The notes below the pieces were generated by a model. That model searched no databases. It was given only the letters and a program-made list of their open reading frames with translations, and was not told where the DNA came from. Shown here one piece after another: positions 29,358 through 42,205 of a stretch of DNA of 64,000 bases (position 1 is the first letter of the stretch; each line of letters starts with the position of its first letter). The stretch spans positions 1-64,000 of the forward strand of contig JACAEX010000078.1 in assembly GCA_013388635.1 (NCBI GenBank). Reading direction: 5' to 3'. A program made the translations under genes and the position numbers. Origin of the DNA: Syntrophaceae bacterium (GTDB lineage Bacteria; Desulfobacterota; BSN033; UBA1163).

Positions 29358-29446
29358 GCCGGAGTGGTGAAACTGGTAGACGCACGGGACTCAAAATCCC
29401 GCGGGGCCCAAACCCCGTGTCGGTTCGACTCCGACCTCCGGCACCA
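29358..29446 (+). tRNA. tRNA-Leu(CAA), CCA encoded
   Basis: GCCGGAGTGGTGAAACTGGTAGACGCACGGGACTCAAAATCCCGCGGGGCCCAAACCCCGTGTCGGTTCGACTCCGACCTCCGGCACCA. Confidence 0.97.
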
Positions 29447-29540
29447 ATTCCCAAAGTTTCCTTTATACTCCAACAGTTTCTTCTCTAGGCTTCAAATAAA
29501 TCCTGAACAATTCACCTTAGTCAGCGTTTCCCTGGTCTTC

Positions 29541-30711: not shown

Positions 30712-31223
30712 AAGGCGAGTGCGGGTGACGTTTCCGAAGCGAAAAATAACGGCAAGAATTCAACACCGCCGGCCGGATTTAAGTTGTTTCAGTATCAACG
30801 TTTTCTTCGTGCTATGCGTGATCTTGAGTAGATAGCGCCGTATTGGAAGGGAAAATGTCTGTAAATTATGACTTCAGGAAGAGGGACAATTGAAAGGGGA
30901 GAGCGATTAGAATACCACTTCACATTTCAAGGCCTGACACCCAGCCCTTATTGTTGTCACCTTGGATGGAAGGGTCGGTAGAGTTGAAGAGAAGGTAGAC
31001 CGGCTCGATGGAAAAATTGAGCAAGTTCACCAGGAATTAAATGGGGGTGGCCCGAAGAAGGCGGCGATACCATGTTCAACATCGAATTACGATTGCCTGG
31101 CACCAATATCTCTTATAAAATGCAAAAAATTGACCTTTTGATTGATTTTTGGTTAATATAGTTTTCACAAAATGGAGGGGGGACAGTCTCTTCTAACGAA
31201 GAACGAAAGGAAGGAGGTTAACG

Positions 31224-31676
31224 ATGGCAACGAAGGGCAATGACAAGGATCGGAGAGGAGTTTTAAAGTACATCGGCATGACGTTTTTGGGATTCGCAAG
31301 TTGGCCCTTCATCAGAAGGGCGACTGGGAATGCAGAGGCAGGAGTGTTTGCCGGTCTTTTCTTGAAGGATACGCCCACGGTTCAGATTCCTGCAGGATAC
31401 TACGACTCTGAATCCCAGCTCTTTATTGACTCAGAGACAAAAAAACCCGTCTTTGTTGCGCAGGCAGAAACGGAAGGAAGGCGTCTTTCGGAAAAGGAAC
31501 TTTCTGAGTTGTTGGAGGGGGATGGCTTCATCTCACTGAAGGAGTTCAAGAAACAGCAAGAAGAGATGATTAAAGTGAGGGGAAAGTCGACCCGATCGAC
31601 ATATACTTCCTTGAAGACGACCTTTTGTTGCCCAATTATCACAGACGAAAGATCGGATAATATTCCTGACGATTGA
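31224..31676 (+). CDS. Small exported protein, candidate RiPP (graspetide-like) precursor
   Basis: AAGGAGGT Shine-Dalgarno; DRRGVLKYIG twin-arginine-like N-terminus; GYYDSESQLFIDSETKKPVF segment; Ser/Thr-rich then acidic C-terminus; upstream of ATP-grasp gene. Confidence 0.55.
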   Translation: MATKGNDKDRRGVLKYIGMTFLGFASWPFIRRATGNAEAGVFAGLFLKDTPTVQIPAGYYDSESQLFIDSETKKPVFVAQAETEGRRLSEKELSELLEGDGFISLKEFKKQQEEMIKVRGKSTRSTYTSLKTTFCCPIITDERSDNIPDD

Positions 31677-31827
31677 CGGGAAAGCGTTTCGTATTTCTGA
31701 CCAACCCAGGACACTCTTTCAAAAACAGGGGTAAGCGGTTCTGCTGTTTGCCGGCATAAGACGCAGGCGGAGAAGGGGATGCCTGCTCTGTCTGCGTGCA
31801 TGAGCTATGCATGAAGAAGGTGAAACG

Positions 31828-32805
31828 ATGCCCGGCGGGTCTGACGATAAGATCCTGATTATCACCCAGGAGGTTGATCCCCATGCAGACCTCATGGTTG
31901 TTGAGCTTCGCCGGAGGGGGGTTAGCTGCCTCCGGTGGCATACGGCATCTTTCCCCTTGGAATCCTGCCTGACACTTCGTGTCAATGATGAGCGTGTCGA
32001 GGCATTACTTCGAATCAACGGAAGAGAGATCGATATCCGGGAGATTCGGAGCGTATGGTACCGGCGGCCCGAACCATTTCAGTTACCCTCTGCGCTATCC
32101 GCTGACGAGAAGTCATTTGCAGAGCGGGAAGTAAAATCATCGTTTTCCGGTTTTATGCAGATCACCGACTGGTTTTGGGTGAACCACCCGGACAGAATAC
32201 GGGTGGGTGCTTCCAAAATACTACAGCTCAAGGTTGCCAGGGAGGTTGGACTGCCCATCCCGAGGACTCTCATCACCAATGAGCCTGAGAAAGTAAAGCC
32301 CTTTTTCGATGAATGCAGGGGGCAGATGATTTATAAAGCCTTGAACTCCGGCTTTTTCCCTTCAGGAAAAGGGTGTTTGACCACGCCAATTTCCCGGGAC
32401 CATCTCAAGAAGTTGCATCTTATCAGAAATGCGCCCGGCATCTTTCAAGAATACGTCCCTAAAAGAATCGAACTTAGAGTGACCATCATCGGCCGGAGGG
32501 TGTTTGCTGCTGAGATCCATTCGCAGGATCATCCTGAGACCAAGGACGATTGGCGGGCAGCCGATGTGGAGAACGTTCGCCATTGTCCCCATGCATTACC
32601 TCACGACATTGAGGCAAAATGTCTGAAATTCATAGATCGCTTCGGTCTGGCCTTTGGAGCTGTGGATATGATTCTTACACCAGACGGCAGATATGTCTTC
32701 CTCGAAAACAACCCGAGTGGCCAGTTTGGATGGATTGAGGATCTTACAAGACTGCCGTTGACAGAGACGCTGGCAGAAATGCTCATTGCGGGTCAAATGA
32801 TTTGA
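31828..32805 (+). CDS. TgmB/MvdD-like ATP-grasp ribosomal peptide maturase
   Basis: KILIITQEVDPHADLMVVELRRRGV...REIRSVWYRRPEPFQLP...VFLENNPSGQFGWIE; start chosen at the SD-preceded ATG. Confidence 0.85.
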   Translation: MPGGSDDKILIITQEVDPHADLMVVELRRRGVSCLRWHTASFPLESCLTLRVNDERVEALLRINGREIDIREIRSVWYRRPEPFQLPSALSADEKSFAEREVKSSFSGFMQITDWFWVNHPDRIRVGASKILQLKVAREVGLPIPRTLITNEPEKVKPFFDECRGQMIYKALNSGFFPSGKGCLTTPISRDHLKKLHLIRNAPGIFQEYVPKRIELRVTIIGRRVFAAEIHSQDHPETKDDWRAADVENVRHCPHALPHDIEAKCLKFIDRFGLAFGAVDMILTPDGRYVFLENNPSGQFGWIEDLTRLPLTETLAEMLIAGQMI

Positions 32806-32845
32806 TAAGAGGCATAAGCGGGCAGAGACCCTAAAGGAGCAAGAT

Positions 32846-35686
32846 ATGCAACCGATTGGAAGAGGATCAGGGGCATATGCAGCGGAAAGGCCCTGGACCA
32901 TATGGCTGTCCGGGCTCCTCTTTTTAGTAAGCATGACAATTACGACGTTAGCGAGTGGTCAGGGCCGTTCTGTTCCTCAGTCCGTAGCTCCTTCAGATTT
33001 CATGCGTAAGTCTGTTGCTCCCTCGGATTTTACGGACATGTCTGTAGCCCCTTCCGATTTTCCAATGATGATGGATGTCGCTCCTTCAGATTTTTTCCGT
33101 CCTCAGCCACCGGTCTCGGACCCGCAGCAAGGATTACAGGATTTTCTGCCCTTGAGGTCGGCAGAGGAGTACCAGGGGGTGTGGAGAGGACTTGATCTGA
33201 GGGGCCCGGCTCCGGCTGATTTTGTGGCAATTCACGCTAATCGGGCAGTAGAGCTTTACCGGACTGCCAATTTTGATGAAGCGCGAAGGGAGATCCAGGA
33301 AGCGATCCACAAGGCGCGTGATCAGAAGGATACAGTCCGTTCCGCCGTGGCTTATGATTTCCGGGGGTTGATTGAGCGGATGCAGGGCCGGCTCACCGAC
33401 GCCATAGATAGCCACAGCAAGGCTGTTGAGCTTCTTGAGGAAAAGGGGGATGGGGCGGCCGATCTTCTTAACGCCAAGGGAAACCTGGCCATTGCCTGCT
33501 ATTACTATGGGGCATATCAAAAAGCACTCACACTCCTTACCGAGATACAGGAGGTCACAACCGATCCAATCATCCAGATCCGAGTGCTCAACAACAGGGG
33601 GCTCATCTACCAGGAAATAGGCCGCCTCGAACAGGCCCAGAAGGATTTTGCATTTGCAGCGCTGGCGGCTGAGGGTTCGAAGGATGATCAGCTTCGAGCA
33701 GAGTGTCTTAATAATCTCGCAAGGCTGACGGCAGTTAGGGGGAAGGTTGAAGAGGCGATTCAGATGTTAGGTGAGGCGCGGCGGCTCGCCAGGGGTCTTC
33801 CCCGGATGTCGAAACCATTGGAGGCAAATGTTCTGGACTCATGGGCCTATGTCCTGCTGGAGGCCGGTCGGTACGAACCCGCTCTGGCCAAGCTGAACGA
33901 GGCATTAGCCCTTGAGGAAAAAGCGCCGTCTCCCCTGATCAAGCCTGTAATTCACCTCAACCGGGGCCGGGCTCTTTCAGGACTTGGCCGGACGGCCGAG
34001 GCATTTGAAGAGTTCCAGAAAACGGAAAGGTTATCTCAGGAGATTGGATTGGAAGCTTTGCAGCGCCAGCTTCTCAGTTACCGTGGCGACCTGCACCGAA
34101 GGCTGGGACGTCTGGACGAGGCCATCAAAGATTATAAGTCGGCCATTGATATCGTCAGATCGACTCGAGAGCGCCTGACAGGCGAGACGGAAAAGGAATT
34201 CAGGACAACGACGCAACGGATCTATCGGAGCCTCGTCGAATCCCTGATCGCGCAGGAAAAGTTCGAGGAGGCCTTCGCCTATTTGGAAGAGAGTAAACTG
34301 AAAGTCTTACAGGACTCCCTGAGGAGAGTGCACCCAAGGTTGCAGGACCTCGATGCCCAGAAGAGGATCGAAGAGGCCAGGGGGATGCTTGACAGAGAAG
34401 AGGCACTCCGGCAACGGCTTCTGCGTGAGCGCGCGGCAGGAGCACCGGGGGAAGTGATCGAGAAAGTGGAGTCCCAGCTCAAGGAAGTAAAGAGGAATTT
34501 CCCCGGGGTCGTGGCAGACCTGAAGAAACGGTACGGAAACAGGTACGCTTCCTATGTGGGCATCCCCACTTCAACCTTTGCACGGCTGAAAGACCTGCTT
34601 CCGCCTGGAACGCTGCTGGTCGAGTTTCTTCCCACCCCTGACTTCTTGATTTTCTTTCTCGTCTCCAGAGACAATGACCTCGAATGGCGCCGAAACGATG
34701 AGGTGAAGGAAGCAGATCTCAACGGGGCGATCCAGCAGTATCGGGCTTTGGTGGAGAATGTGAGAGGGGTTCGCTCCTCGTGGCGCATCGATTCTTGGAG
34801 TGATCCAACATGGAAGGAACTCCGTGAAGCGACGGTTCGGCTCTATCTGGCCCTGATCGAACCAATCTCTGATCGTATCTCAAAGGCCGAGCGTGTGATC
34901 TTTGTTCCAGCAGGGATTCTCTATTATCTTCCCATCCATGCACTGGGAAAGGCGGATGAAGAGGGAGAGATCCAATACCTCATCGACCAGAAACCGGTGG
35001 TCTATCTCACGAATAGCGAGCTCTTGAGCATTGTTACGGAGCGGACGACCCTGCTGGAAGGGAAATCACTCTTTGCTCTGGGCAACCCGCCTTTTGAACA
35101 CACGGAACCCCTGCTTGATCCCCTCAAGAACGCAGAAGAAGAAGTGAATGCGGTAAAAAGGGTATTCGGCGAGAAGGCCTTCACCCTGGTCGGTCAGAAG
35201 GCGACTCGGCAAGCCCTTCTCGATATTCTTCGGCCCCCGGCTGGGAGGGTAGGGTTCGAGTTTATCCTGTTAGCCACCCATGCAATCCTTGATCCTCAGT
35301 CACCGGCCGATTCATGGCTTGCCCTGGATGGGACAAACAAGCTGACGGCCCAGGAGGTTCCAAACTTCGATCTCAGCAACGTCAGCCTGGTCACCTTAAG
35401 CGCATGTCAGACAGCGGTGGAATCAGACAGCCCCGGGAATGAGCTCATGGGATTGGCCCATTTCTTCAGCCAGGCCAGATCGCCTTCGATCGTGGCGAGC
35501 CTATGGTCGGTGGATGATATATCGACGCGCGACCTGATGGTGACGTTCCACAAGACCATGCTGGAGCAGAAAGTCCTTGACAAGGCCAGAGCGCTGCAAC
35601 AGGCCCAGAGGGCGCTGGCGACCAGGCCGGAGACCCGCCATCCCTTCTTCTGGGCTTCATTCATCCTGATCGGCGACTGGCGATAA
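32846..35686 (+). CDS. Secreted TPR-CHAT domain protein with N-terminal (S/D)VAPSDF repeats
   Basis: Signal-peptide-like N-terminus; multiple TPRs; CHAT motifs ILLATHAILDP and VTLSACQTAVES...GLAHFFSQARSPSIVASLWSVDD. Confidence 0.9.
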   Translation: MQPIGRGSGAYAAERPWTIWLSGLLFLVSMTITTLASGQGRSVPQSVAPSDFMRKSVAPSDFTDMSVAPSDFPMMMDVAPSDFFRPQPPVSDPQQGLQDFLPLRSAEEYQGVWRGLDLRGPAPADFVAIHANRAVELYRTANFDEARREIQEAIHKARDQKDTVRSAVAYDFRGLIERMQGRLTDAIDSHSKAVELLEEKGDGAADLLNAKGNLAIACYYYGAYQKALTLLTEIQEVTTDPIIQIRVLNNRGLIYQEIGRLEQAQKDFAFAALAAEGSKDDQLRAECLNNLARLTAVRGKVEEAIQMLGEARRLARGLPRMSKPLEANVLDSWAYVLLEAGRYEPALAKLNEALALEEKAPSPLIKPVIHLNRGRALSGLGRTAEAFEEFQKTERLSQEIGLEALQRQLLSYRGDLHRRLGRLDEAIKDYKSAIDIVRSTRERLTGETEKEFRTTTQRIYRSLVESLIAQEKFEEAFAYLEESKLKVLQDSLRRVHPRLQDLDAQKRIEEARGMLDREEALRQRLLRERAAGAPGEVIEKVESQLKEVKRNFPGVVADLKKRYGNRYASYVGIPTSTFARLKDLLPPGTLLVEFLPTPDFLIFFLVSRDNDLEWRRNDEVKEADLNGAIQQYRALVENVRGVRSSWRIDSWSDPTWKELREATVRLYLALIEPISDRISKAERVIFVPAGILYYLPIHALGKADEEGEIQYLIDQKPVVYLTNSELLSIVTERTTLLEGKSLFALGNPPFEHTEPLLDPLKNAEEEVNAVKRVFGEKAFTLVGQKATRQALLDILRPPAGRVGFEFILLATHAILDPQSPADSWLALDGTNKLTAQEVPNFDLSNVSLVTLSACQTAVESDSPGNELMGLAHFFSQARSPSIVASLWSVDDISTRDLMVTFHKTMLEQKVLDKARALQQAQRALATRPETRHPFFWASFILIGDWR
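32981..33094 (+). repeat. Four tandem (S/D)VAPSDF-encoding repeats
   Basis: 32981-33001, 33011-33031, 33041-33061 and 33074-33094 encode SVAPSDF x3 and DVAPSDF with different synonymous codons. Confidence 0.95.
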
Positions 35687-35822: not shown

Positions 35823-35915
35823 CTTCCCCCGGTGAAACATTCAGCGTCCTGAAAGAAAAAGAGCAGAAACATTCCGGCTGATACCACACCCGCCACATGG
35901 GCTTCAAAGCACGGG
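35823..35915. repeat. Diverged direct repeat copy A flanking TA module
   Basis: ...GTCCTGAAAGAAAAAGAG...GATACCACACCCGCCACATGG..., related to copy B at 36682-36774. Confidence 0.6.
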
Positions 35916-36681: not shown

Positions 36682-36774
36682 GTTTCCCCGGCAAACCCTT
36701 CCGAGTCCTGAAAGAGAAAGAGATTCGCCAATTCGCCTAATACCACACCCGCCACCTGGTATTTGAAGAACGGG
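36682..36774. repeat. Diverged direct repeat copy B flanking TA module
   Basis: ...GTCCTGAAAGAGAAAGAG...AATACCACACCCGCCACCTGG... Confidence 0.6.
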
Positions 36775-37176: not shown

Positions 37177-37386
37177 ATGATCTTAAGGGATAGGGACAAT
37201 CCTTATCCGGTGGGCGTTCAGAAAGTGCAGGGACACAGGCGGCTCTACTGCGTTCGTGTAGGTCAATACCGTGTCGTTTATGCGATTGAGGAACAACGAA
37301 AATTAGTTTTTGGACTCAAAATCCCGCGGAGCCCAAACCCCGTGTCGGTTCGACTCCGACCTCCGGCACCAGTTTTCATCTGCTAA
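37177..37386 (+). pseudogene. RelE-like toxin fragment fused into tRNA-Leu-derived repeat
   Basis: NPYPVGVQKVQGHRRLYCVRVGQYRVVYAIEEQRKLVFGLKI is RelE-like; the following residues are encoded by the duplicated tRNA sequence. Confidence 0.7.
37312..37371 (+). repeat. Duplicate of tRNA-Leu 3' 60 nt (candidate att site)
   Basis: GGACTCAAAATCCCGCGGAGCCCAAACCCCGTGTCGGTTCGACTCCGACCTCCGGCACCA; one mismatch to 29387-29446. Confidence 0.95.
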
Positions 37387-38519: not shown

Positions 38520-39215
38520 ATGGTAATTCTCTTAGTTGCCTTGACATTCCTCGCTGCAATTTTGATAAGGGCTTTGTTGAATCATCAGGCTCGTAAAAGA
38601 GCTGTGATCATGCCTAAGTTAGAGAGAGAGGGAGTGGCTCTCTCCCCGGCCTTGGCGAGTTCTGGTTCTGGAGGGATACCTCAGTTTCCCATTGGCATCT
38701 ATTATGATGATGGACATGCATGGGTGAGACTTGATGAAGGCAATAAGGCCAGGATCGGTCTTGATGATTTTACTCAACAGGTGATGGGAGATATCGATGA
38801 GATCGAAATTCCTCCGGTAGGCAGCCGATTGAACCGAGGAGAGGTGGCCTGGAGACTTCGTCATGGTGGACGAAAGTTGAGCCAATTGGCTCCCCTGGGT
38901 GGGACGGTGGTGGAAGTAAATCAAAGACTGAGTCGGGATCCTTCCCTCGCCAATCGTTCCCCTTATGAAGAAGGATGGATTCTGAAGATTCACCCCAAAG
39001 CCCTCACCAAAGAGATGCCAGAGTTGATGGACTCTTTTCAATTTAGAAAACACTTCGACCAAACTAAGGCAGAACTGAGATCCTTCTTCAATAATGAGGG
39101 GCTGGGAAGGATCTATGGTGATGGAGAAGAGGTGATCCGAGGAGCTGCTGAAAAATTGGACGAAAGATGGTGGAGGGTATTGGTCACCCAGTTGTTCCAT
39201 TCTTCTCCAGATTGA
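38520..39215 (+). CDS. Membrane-anchored GcvH-like domain protein
   Basis: YYDDGHAWVRLDEGNKARIGLDDFTQQVMGDIDEIEIPPVGSRLNRGEVAWRL...APLGGTVVEVN. Confidence 0.8.
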   Translation: MVILLVALTFLAAILIRALLNHQARKRAVIMPKLEREGVALSPALASSGSGGIPQFPIGIYYDDGHAWVRLDEGNKARIGLDDFTQQVMGDIDEIEIPPVGSRLNRGEVAWRLRHGGRKLSQLAPLGGTVVEVNQRLSRDPSLANRSPYEEGWILKIHPKALTKEMPELMDSFQFRKHFDQTKAELRSFFNNEGLGRIYGDGEEVIRGAAEKLDERWWRVLVTQLFHSSPD

Positions 39216-39247
39216 GTATTAAAAATTTAGAAAGGAGGATGATTCTG

Positions 39248-39397
39248 ATGGTACCGATCCTTGCAATATTGACCGTGATTACCTGTATCGGGATAAGGTC
39301 ACTGGCTCAAAGAATCAGACGGATCCATCTTGCTGAAGAAAGAAGAATAAGGAGGAGCCCATGGGGATTGACAGAAGAGGCTTTCTTAAAGTTTTAG
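39248..39397 (+). CDS. Small transmembrane protein
   Basis: MVPILAILTVITCIGIRSLAQRIRRIHLAEERR...; SD AAAGGAGG; overlaps next gene. Confidence 0.55.
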   Translation: MVPILAILTVITCIGIRSLAQRIRRIHLAEERRIRRSPWGLTEEAFLKF

Positions 39398-40236
39398 GTG
39401 GAGGAGTAGCAGGGGCAGCCCTGGGAAATCTTTTGACCCCAGGGAGACTCAGGGCAAGCGTAACATCTCACCCTACGGAGTTTGTCGGGGTCCTGGTCGA
39501 CACCACCCGTTGTGTAGGGTGCCGTTCCTGTGAAGCTGCCTGTGCAGAGGCAAACCATCTGCCCGTTCCAGATATAAGCGACACGTCCGTATTTGAAAAA
39601 GAGCGGAAAACGACGGTGAGCCAATGGACAGTTGTAAATCGTTATGAGACAGAGAAGGGAGAAGTATTTGTCAAGAGACAGTGCATGCATTGTAATCAAC
39701 CTGGCTGCGTAGCAGCCTGTTTGGTGAAGGCTATGGAGAAGAGAAAGGAAGGGCCTGTCACCTGGGATACCAATTGCATGGGGTGTCGATACTGCATGCC
39801 CTCCTGTCCCTTTGAAATCCCAAAGTTTGAATATCATAGTGCCGCTCCGAGAATTCAGAAGTGCAGTTTGTGCTGGGAGAGACTTCAAAAGGGGGAGAAA
39901 CCGGCCTGCGTGGAGAACTGCCCCGAAGAGGCGCTTCTTTTCGGCCCGAGAAGAAAATTGATCGAAGAGGCGAACAGCAGAATCTATAAAAACCCCGGGA
40001 GATACGTCACCCAGATTTATGGAGAGCATGAGGTCGGAGGGACAGGATACCTTTATCTATCCAAGGTTCCCTTCGAACAGATCGGTTTCAGAACCGATCT
40101 CGGGACGACCCCTTATCCAGAATATACCAAGGGCTTTCTCTATTCGGTTCCACTGGTCCTTCTGCTCTGGCCTGCATTTCTGATCGGGGTAAACGCCCTA
40201 ACAAAGCGGGAAGATGAAAGAAGAGGAGGGAGATGA
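39361..40236 (+). CDS. Tat-targeted 4Fe-4S ferredoxin subunit (HybA/DsrO-like)
   Basis: MGIDRRGFLKVLGGGVAGAALG; CVGCRSCEAAC, CMHCNQPGCVAAC, CMGCRYCMPSCPF, CSLCWERL. Confidence 0.9.
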   Translation: MGIDRRGFLKVLGGGVAGAALGNLLTPGRLRASVTSHPTEFVGVLVDTTRCVGCRSCEAACAEANHLPVPDISDTSVFEKERKTTVSQWTVVNRYETEKGEVFVKRQCMHCNQPGCVAACLVKAMEKRKEGPVTWDTNCMGCRYCMPSCPFEIPKFEYHSAAPRIQKCSLCWERLQKGEKPACVENCPEEALLFGPRRKLIEEANSRIYKNPGRYVTQIYGEHEVGGTGYLYLSKVPFEQIGFRTDLGTTPYPEYTKGFLYSVPLVLLLWPAFLIGVNALTKREDERRGGR

Positions 40237-41531
40237 AGATGAAGGAATTGGGCGAAACAGGAGAAATCAAAAGCTTAAAGGATTTTTGGGTCTTTATTCG
40301 CAATGAGCTGAAACCGAAGGGGAAGATCCTTACGACCTTTAATGTCATCTCCTTCCCGATCATCCTTCTCGGTGCTGTTCTTGTGGTCATCCGTCTGGCG
40401 AAGGGACTGGGTTCGGTTACCAACCTCTCGCAGGAATTTCCCTGGGGCATATGGATCGGATTTGATGTGATGGTAGGGGTCGCCTTTGCAGGAGGCGCTT
40501 ACATCCTTACCTTTGTGGTCTACATCCTCCGTTCTGAAAAATATCATCCTATCGTCAGGGCAACCGTGCTCAACGGGTTCCTCGCCTATGTCTTTTATGC
40601 GGGGGCCATTTTCCTTGATCTGGGTCGGTGGTGGAATATCATCAATCCCATCATCGGGAACAAATTCGGTGTCAACTCAGTGCTTTTCCTTGTCTCCTGG
40701 CATTTTCTCCTCTACATGATCTCTCTGTTTCTTGAGTTCTCTCCTGCTGTGGCGGAATGGCTTGGATTGAGAAGGGTCAGGAAGATCCTCGCTTCACTTA
40801 CCGTAGGGGCAGTCATCTTCGGCATTGCCCTTTCCACCCTCCATCAATCGGGTCTGGGTGCCCTGTTCCTGATGGCCAAGGATAAGATCCATCCCCTGTG
40901 GTATACCGAATTCATCCCGGTTCTCTTCTTTGTATCCAGCATCTTTGCCGGGCTTTCCATGGTGATTTTTGAAGGGACCATCAGCCACAAGGTCTTCGCC
41001 CGTCAGATCGACCCCGAGCATCACGAATCTTTTGATCATATTCTGATCGGTTTGGGAAAGGGATGCGCAGGGGCGTTGTTCGTCTATTTCTTCATGAAGA
41101 TTCTTATCCTTATCCATGGGAAACAGTGGTCTCTTTTAGGTACCCCCATGGGCACCTGGTATCTGGTTGAACTGATCGGTCTGGTTCTCCTTCCTTGCGT
41201 CCTGTTCCTGCACGGCGTGCGGTATCAAAACTTAACGGTCATCCGGATGGCGGCCATCCTTTCGATGCTTGGCATTATCATCAACCGGCTCAATTACTCT
41301 GTCATCGCCTATAAATGGTATGTGCCATTGAGCCAGAGATATTTCCCCTCGTGGATGGAGATTGTGATTACCCTTTCGATCATCTTCGCAGAGGTGTGGG
41401 TCTTCAGATGGGTCGTCAATCGGATGCCTGTGTTACGAGAATCCCCGGAATGGGCAACGGAAGAAAAGACCGTAAGGGAGAGTATGACGATGAGAAAGGA
41501 GGTCCCTCGATGGAAGGTTTCAGCTATGTAG
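40233..41531 (+). CDS. NrfD/HybB-type membrane subunit
   Basis: Polytopic; SQEFPWGIWIGFDVMVGVAFAGGAYIL, SFDHILIGLGKG. Confidence 0.9.
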   Translation: MKMKELGETGEIKSLKDFWVFIRNELKPKGKILTTFNVISFPIILLGAVLVVIRLAKGLGSVTNLSQEFPWGIWIGFDVMVGVAFAGGAYILTFVVYILRSEKYHPIVRATVLNGFLAYVFYAGAIFLDLGRWWNIINPIIGNKFGVNSVLFLVSWHFLLYMISLFLEFSPAVAEWLGLRRVRKILASLTVGAVIFGIALSTLHQSGLGALFLMAKDKIHPLWYTEFIPVLFFVSSIFAGLSMVIFEGTISHKVFARQIDPEHHESFDHILIGLGKGCAGALFVYFFMKILILIHGKQWSLLGTPMGTWYLVELIGLVLLPCVLFLHGVRYQNLTVIRMAAILSMLGIIINRLNYSVIAYKWYVPLSQRYFPSWMEIVITLSIIFAEVWVFRWVVNRMPVLRESPEWATEEKTVRESMTMRKEVPRWKVSAM

Positions 41532-42205
41532 ACATCTTTGCCACCAAACATATTGAATATCTGCTGGTCATCGGTTTTCTGCTATTCTTCACCCTTTTCT
41601 GGAAGTTTCTGAACAGACCTGCGAGATTGGTCCTCAGGGAATCGGAGCGGCTGATCCCTGCCATAAACGAATGGTTTCGCCTTCCGGAGGGGGTATATTA
41701 CCACTTGGGTCACAGCTGGGCGGTTCCAGAAGGTAAGGATGTGGTGAAGGTGGGCATGGACGATTTTGCCCAAAAATTGGTTGGCAAGGTCGATGGGATT
41801 CATGTCCCACACCCTGGATCAACGATCCATCAGGGAGAGAAGGGATGGAGTTTGAAGGTCGATTCAAAAGTGATTGACATGCTCTCTCCAGTCGATGGGA
41901 AGGTGATCGCCGTCAACGAAGAGATTCTTCATTCTCCTGAGACTATTAATCAGGACCCTTACAGCCATTGGCTGATGAAGGTGGAGACTCCAAAATTTTC
42001 AGTCAATAAGAGACACCTCCTTCAAGGAGCCATGGCAAGAAGATGGATGGAAGAGGTCAGGGAAAATTTGCTTTCAAGGATGAATTACAATCTCGGTCTG
42101 GTCTATCAGGATGGTGGTTTGCTGGTTGACGGCATGGCCAAACATCTGGATCGAGAGAGATGGGATGAGATTGTAAAAGATTATTTCCTGGTTTCTGAAG
42201 GGTAA
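41510..42205 (+). CDS. Membrane-anchored GcvH-like domain protein
   Basis: VYYHLGHSWAVPEGKDVVKVGMDDFAQKLVGKVDGIHVPHPGSTIHQGEKGWSLKV...LSPVDGKVIAVNEE. Confidence 0.8.
   Translation: MEGFSYVDIFATKHIEYLLVIGFLLFFTLFWKFLNRPARLVLRESERLIPAINEWFRLPEGVYYHLGHSWAVPEGKDVVKVGMDDFAQKLVGKVDGIHVPHPGSTIHQGEKGWSLKVDSKVIDMLSPVDGKVIAVNEEILHSPETINQDPYSHWLMKVETPKFSVNKRHLLQGAMARRWMEEVRENLLSRMNYNLGLVYQDGGLLVDGMAKHLDRERWDEIVKDYFLVSEG

Follow-up and report, generated by a model that had tools for sequence, protein, structure and literature searches.

We analysed a 64,000-nucleotide stretch of DNA from a Syntrophaceae bacterium (Desulfobacterota; assembly GCA_013388635.1, contig JACAEX010000078.1, positions 1 to 64,000), referred to as the window, and found in it three adjacent genes that could together make, export and process a graspetide, a proposal to which we give somewhat less than even chances. 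The genes are three co-directional open reading frames (ORFs) spaced by 130 and 40 bp, encoding a putative graspetide precursor with a twin-arginine translocation (Tat) signal, an ATP-grasp ligase, and an exported protein with tetratricopeptide repeats (TPRs) and a CHAT domain (Table 1). The sequence comparisons indicate that the identities of the precursor and the ligase, the two predicted export signals, the catalytic dyad, the co-inheritance of the trio and its setting in an island are well supported. A first-pass annotation of the window had described the first product as a 150-aa protein with a good Shine-Dalgarno sequence and a twin-arginine-like signal, the second as a TgmB/MvdD-like ATP-grasp ligase and the third as a 946-aa exported TPR-CHAT protein with a His/Cys pair, and our data bear out all three readings. 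It had also matched the cassette to no described system, and we found no description of such a cassette in the literature searched.

If the proposal is true, this would be the first graspetide exported by Tat and the first linked to a caspase-fold protease, to judge from the literature searched. It would bear on which proteases mature graspetides and on what the exported TPR-CHAT proteins, which are found repeatedly in the phylum, act on. The proposal should be directly testable in E. coli, because the cassette has only three genes and both predicted partners are outside the cytoplasm.

The putative precursor and its ligase

Our best reading of the 150-aa protein is that of a graspetide precursor whose leader is preceded by a Tat signal, because this leader is common to other precursors and the predicted core is conserved. 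An orthologue is encoded in locus L012, on contig JACPAM010000122.1 of Deltaproteobacteria NC_groundwater_231 (genome G401), which belongs to another class of the phylum. The identity between the two proteins is 46% in the signal, 70% in the leader, 42% in the linker and 69% in the core. They share the leader block GVFAGLFL.DTP..QIP.GYYD.ESQL..D, and a similar block is found in small ORFs directly upstream of other graspetide ligases (loci L004, L013, L014, L016 and L017), with Y60-D61 invariant across the precursors beside these ligases. The leader-bearing ORF of L013, from Pseudonocardia, is a recognised TIGR04186 precursor (1.8e-10). A profile made from the two precursor sequences (A1) found unaided a short precursor-like ORF with the same leader block in genome G636 (3.0e-5). 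The core end reads TSLKTTFCCPIITDERSDNIPDD in the window and TSLRTTGCCPIITDRESDTISDD in L012, and T126, T128, S129, T132, T133, T140, D141, S144, D145, D149 and D150 are identical in both. T128, T132, D141 and D145 match TxxxTx(6-10)Dx(1-4)D, the signature of branch-1 graspetides (PMC8939145).

The N-terminus of the precursor, MATKGNDKDRRGVLKYIGMTFLGFASWPFIRRATGNAEA, cut before GV, matches a Tat signal with an AxA site. The motif and the cleavage site are DRRGVLK and AEA-G in the window protein and NRRGFLK and ANA-G in the L012 orthologue, with an uncharged stretch between them. Our strict Tat pattern, applied to 2776 candidate starts from the window and the loci, picked out three distinct proteins, i.e. 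the precursor, its orthologue and one unrelated protein, and it was matched by at most 0.03% of shuffled sequences. TatC is encoded in both genomes that carry the trio, and the HybA-like iron-sulphur protein encoded at 39361 of the window has a similar motif, DRRGFLK. With its twin-arginine motif, moderately hydrophobic h-region, AxA site and a TatC in the genome, the 150-aa protein has the predicted features of a Tat substrate. The TIGR01409 Tat profile was not reached by the window precursor (11.6 bits versus 16.7 for the L012 orthologue). Neither of the two proteins matched the TIGR04186 (TgmA-type) precursor profile. The precursor search of plasmids gave no match at E 1, and the searches of viral contigs with the ligase and the precursor profile found no relatives. 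A precursor match in G921/G1055 (3.2e-4) is interrupted by stop codons and was regarded as a chance hit. A sigma-70-like site is found at 31130-31159, and such sites are hardly above chance (4 versus 2.4 expected).

The second gene product is predicted to be a member of the graspetide (MvdC/MvdD/TgmB/PsnB) family of ATP-grasp ligases. It matches the MvdD pre-ATP-grasp domain (ATPgraspMvdD, PF21068) at 7.6e-15, with 55.5 bits versus a cut-off of 27. Its nearest structures are of the microviridin type (5ig8, 5ig9, 7mgv and 7m4s, E 5e-50 to 2e-45), its six PDB matches also include 7drm, and it keeps the ELR, DWR and FLE.NP motifs. In NCBIfam it falls between TIGR04187, MvdD and MvdC, below the cut-offs of TIGR04187 (287.8 versus 350), TIGR04184 and TIGR04185. 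The ligase may start at the ATG at 31828, the point where the homology to L012 begins.

Two further graspetide-like precursors were observed in other genomes. The one in G636 (L022/L025) has ~86 aa, and no similar ligase was found within ~10 kb of it. In G212 (L014, 7568-8015), a putative multicore precursor with TxTxxxRE(S/Q)(D/E)D-type repeats is encoded upstream of a ligase that is 38% identical to the window ligase.

The TPR-CHAT protein and the second copy of the cassette

The third protein combines TPRs with a CHAT domain (PF12770; 2.1e-55, above the cut-off) and carries a hydrophobic signal at its N-terminus. H812 (in LLATHA) and C854 (in LSACQT) align with the catalytic H615 and C658 of Csx29, whose mutation abolishes activity (PMC10028731), and both are kept in all or nearly all homologues. 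By its domain and the predicted catalytic His/Cys, the protein is a putative CHAT (caspase-fold) protease. The sequence similarity to Csx29 itself is very weak (E 0.16). Membership in Csx29/type III-E was rejected, with 31.8 bits for NF041237 versus a cut-off of 300 and no CRISPR effector or cas genes among the neighbouring genes examined.

We scanned contigs of GTDB genomes with the ligase, searching ~1000 genomes of the phylum overall, and found the second trio, in the same order, in L012. The recurrence of the ligase/CHAT pair, which the first-pass annotation had set as a check, is thereby confirmed. The gene order in L012 is sigma factor, zinc-finger anti-sigma factor, M48-TPR peptidase, precursor, ligase and TPR-CHAT, the last being ended by the contig end. 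A second G401 contig begins within a CHAT domain, the nearest one to the window CHAT, and we infer that it continues the L012 CHAT gene. The identities between the window and G401 are 63-74% for the ligase, 57% for the precursor and 57% over 291 columns for the CHAT domain. The two ligases pair at 97/95 in their tree, and the two CHAT domains pair at 100/100, on a long stem apart from 13 other CHATs of the phylum. The ligase is the sole graspetide ligase of the window genome and the TPR-CHAT protein its sole CHAT protein; their adjacency, with the same order in L012, points to the trio as a functional unit. No third trio was found in the ~1000 genomes of the phylum, the G1034 match having the same place and score as that of G401, and nothing was found in 390 genomes of another class.

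The genes upstream of the second trio, i.e. those for the sigma factor, the anti-sigma factor and the M48-TPR peptidase, which is exported, cover 3589-7472 of L012. On the contig apparently continuing L012, a trypsin/HtrA-like protease is encoded at 1692-2654 of L023, giving a protease-rich, envelope-stress-like setting.

Proposed pathway, rival explanations and related systems

In the proposed pathway the ligase would bind the precursor leader in the cytoplasm and link Thr/Ser (or Lys) side chains with those of Asp/Glu in the C-terminal core. Once crosslinked, the precursor would leave the cytoplasm folded via Tat, its folding or crosslinking perhaps being the reason for using this route, and signal peptidase would cut at AxA, bringing a leader-linker-core protein into the periplasm. 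The TPR-CHAT protein, exported by the general secretory (Sec) pathway, would recognise this precursor, cut the linker and free the crosslinked core as a presumably active peptide. We suggest the order of modification, Tat export and encounter with CHAT outside the cytoplasm because the precursor and the protease are both predicted to be exported, and the ligase needs ATP and would stay cytoplasmic. A precursor, a synthetase and a protease make up a standard gene set of ribosomally synthesised and post-translationally modified peptides (RiPPs). The gasdermin-linked proteases, one of the two characterised CHAT/caspase-like systems known to us, have the product of a neighbouring gene as their substrate. 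In the Csx29-Csx30 system, the other of the two, the neighbour of the CHAT protein serves as its substrate (PMC10028731). Our preference for the cutting of the precursor by CHAT comes from the known systems, in which the protein encoded next to CHAT is the substrate, and from the need for another cut after that of signal peptidase. More tentatively, we suggest that Tat exports a folded, macrocycle-stabilised protein rather than a free peptide and that the periplasmic TPR-CHAT protein is switched by the product or activates it, which would make this a graspetide system of a new class, an extracytoplasmic peptide-protease circuit unprecedented among RiPPs or CHAT systems.

Several observations weigh against the proposed pathway. 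The TxxxTx(6-10)Dx(1-4)D motif alone is not significant, being present in 5-15% of shuffles. The window precursor reaches the cut-off of none of the family profiles, those for Tat and RiPPs included, and its AlphaFold model, made from two sequences, is of too low quality to be used (pLDDT 44). The recurrence is thin, with the trio in 2 of the ~1000 genomes of the phylum; in G401 the ligase lacks ~41 aa with a frameshift and the CHAT gene is split by a frameshift, due to either decay or an assembly error. Other TPR-CHAT proteins of the phylum, many with signal peptides, have no ligase within ~1.5 kb, and since such signal-bearing proteins are common without a nearby ligase, leader removal would not be the ancestral job of CHAT.

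The roles could also be reversed, with the exported crosslinked core dedicated to inhibiting or allosterically regulating the periplasmic TPR-CHAT protein, whose targets would be other envelope proteins. We regard this as unlikely, yet it has several points on its side: the graspetides characterised by 2022 were all reported as protease inhibitors (PMC8939145), exported TPR-CHAT proteins occur alone, which makes the graspetide look like a regulator added to them, and the G401 trio is located between the M48-TPR peptidase, sigma and anti-sigma genes and the contig with the HtrA-like protease. The substrate role of CHAT neighbours in known systems speaks against it. To our knowledge, the characterised graspetides inhibit serine and not caspase-fold proteases, which also counts against such a control. 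We consider it at least as plausible that the protease processes the peptide as that the peptide controls the protease.

An alternative hypothesis, which we find rather improbable, is that the precursor and ligase genes only co-travel with the CHAT gene on the island, as independent cargo without interaction, and that housekeeping proteases process the peptide. The island does carry other unrelated cargo (DUF2283 and DUF433/DUF5615), in many graspetide loci a dedicated protease is absent, and NosP works in trans (PMC13039773). This hypothesis, however, does not sit well with the recurrence of the three genes and their order in a genome of another class, with the sister pairing of the ligases and of the CHATs of the two loci, with the single copy of the ligase and of CHAT in the genome, or with the export signals of the precursor and the CHAT protein.

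It is improbable too that the trio is a competition module, in which the mature peptide would be a toxin or signal secreted against other bacteria and the TPR-CHAT protein its immunity protein or receptor. The mobile and patchy distribution would fit this idea, but no dedicated outer-membrane exporter was found among the scanned island genes. The role in defence that the first-pass annotation had considered possible was not borne out, as the PADLOC matches, to a generic TPR model (3.2e-8) and weakly to Csx1/Csm6 (4e-4), were not informative.

The last rival concerns the four VAPSDF repeats of the CHAT protein. Their residues are identical and 19 of the 36 codon pairs differ, all synonymously, which suggests selection on the peptide because the amino acids are the same while the codons differ. 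VAPSDF resembles the KYPSDW segment of microviridin, and a PAPADF variant follows at aa 121. That the ligase esterifies Ser/Asp in these repeats, with the 150-aa protein as a leader or partner in trans, is nevertheless very improbable, since the L012 orthologue lacks the repeats (it has APSPAFP/APSPAMP instead, without Asp) and the CHAT protein has no leader motif and would go through Sec unfolded. The repeats had been considered as a multi-core substrate, and were demoted to this rival as they have no plasmid counterpart and no equivalent in L012.

Compared with the branch-1 graspetides (microviridin MvdC/MvdD and fuscimiditide/TgmB; PMC8939145), the window locus has the same MvdD-type ligase, a separate precursor gene just upstream, a YD-motif leader block and a T/D core that fits the branch signature. 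It differs in the twin-arginine signal ahead of the leader, in the precursor length of 150 aa and in the exported CHAT partner, with no ATP-binding cassette (ABC) transporter or C39 peptidase seen near the trio. The main text of the same survey names TPR proteins among the graspetide-associated genes of unclear role. The bufferins and other MNIO-modified RiPPs (PMC12452194) similarly combine cytoplasmic modification with a general export signal instead of a dedicated exporter, but they use an MNIO enzyme, cysteine chemistry and Sec instead of Tat. Signal peptides are described as rare among bacterial RiPPs, and Sec ones are documented for MNIO systems (PMC12452194). Craspase/Csx29 of type III-E CRISPR (PMC10028731) shares the TPR plus CHAT architecture and the aligned dyad; it is cytoplasmic and RNA-activated, whereas the window protein is predicted to be exported. 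The TPR proteins linked to FxSxx-COOH and HaaA cyclophane RiPPs (NF040586, NF041717) are RiPP-linked as well and match weakly, far below the cut-offs and in the TPR repeats only.

Graspetides and CHAT domains were not joined in the literature searched. The main texts of two genome-wide graspetide surveys (PMC8939145, PMC13097080) contain no CHAT, caspase or twin-arginine, and PMC10885120 contains no CHAT or caspase. Judging by titles and abstracts, the papers found that mention RiPP precursor peptides together with twin-arginine deal with lanthipeptides and bacteriocins. In the literature searched, graspetide precursors with a Tat signal and graspetide systems with a CHAT partner appear to be undescribed.

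The island and its surroundings

The trio is located in a 7.9-kb segment between two 63-nt repeats, together with a DUF2283 gene and a DUF433/DUF5615 pair. A duplicated tRNA 3' end is the usual mark left by integration into a tRNA gene, and we consider the setting mobile because the 3' 63 nt of tRNA-Leu are duplicated at both ends. The sequence supports the segment as a tRNA-borne island and a candidate mobile element. The mobile element claimed in the first-pass annotation stands as to its tRNA-Leu bounds, but no integrase was found among the scanned ORFs within the island. The dinucleotide composition of the island gave no clear difference from other windows, and no radical SAM enzyme was found among the neighbouring genes examined.

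Table 1. Features of the cassette and its island, in window coordinates
Feature	Position	Strand	Evidence
tRNA-Leu (CAA), left island boundary	29358..29446	+	ARAGORN
attL-like repeat, 3' part of tRNA-Leu including CCA	29387..29449	+	63-nt direct repeat
Shine-Dalgarno AAGGAGG, 6 nt before precursor ATG	31211..31217	+	sequence
Putative Tat-exported graspetide precursor, 150 aa	31224..31676	+	57% identical full-length to L012:7507-7962
Predicted twin-arginine signal, aa 1-39, RRGVLK, AEA-G cleavage site	31224..31340	+	L012 orthologue, Tat pattern, TatC in both genomes
Graspetide-type leader, aa 40-79, motif VFAGLF..P..Q.P.GYYD.ESQL..D	31341..31460	+	also present in precursors next to other graspetide ligases
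Variable linker, aa 80-118, candidate cleavage region	31461..31577	+	42% identity to L012
Predicted core, aa 119-150, TSLKTTFCCPIITDERSDNIPDD	31578..31673	+	69% identity to L012, motif from PMC8939145
Graspetide-type ATP-grasp ligase, 332 aa	31807..32805	+	Pfam PF21068, PDB, NCBIfam matches
Predicted exported TPR-CHAT protein, 946 aa	32846..35686	+	Pfam, homologue alignment
Four VAPSDF repeats, aa 47-52, 57-62, 67-72, 78-83, after signal peptide	32984..33094	+	sequence
CHAT domain; H812 at 35279-35281, C854 at 35405-35407	34838..35677	+	Pfam, Csx29 and homologue alignments
attR-like repeat, 97% identical to tRNA-Leu 3' end	37312..37374	+	sequence comparison

Two 92-nt direct repeats, 74% identical, are also present in the island at 35824-35915 and 36683-36774, and may be remnants of small genes that were duplicated. 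Beyond the island, the genes at 38520-42205 encode two GcvH-domain proteins around a Tat-type iron-sulphur protein and an NrfD-like membrane protein. At least the first of the GcvH-domain proteins has an N-terminal hydrophobic segment, and the group looks like an odd lipoate-type/redox operon.

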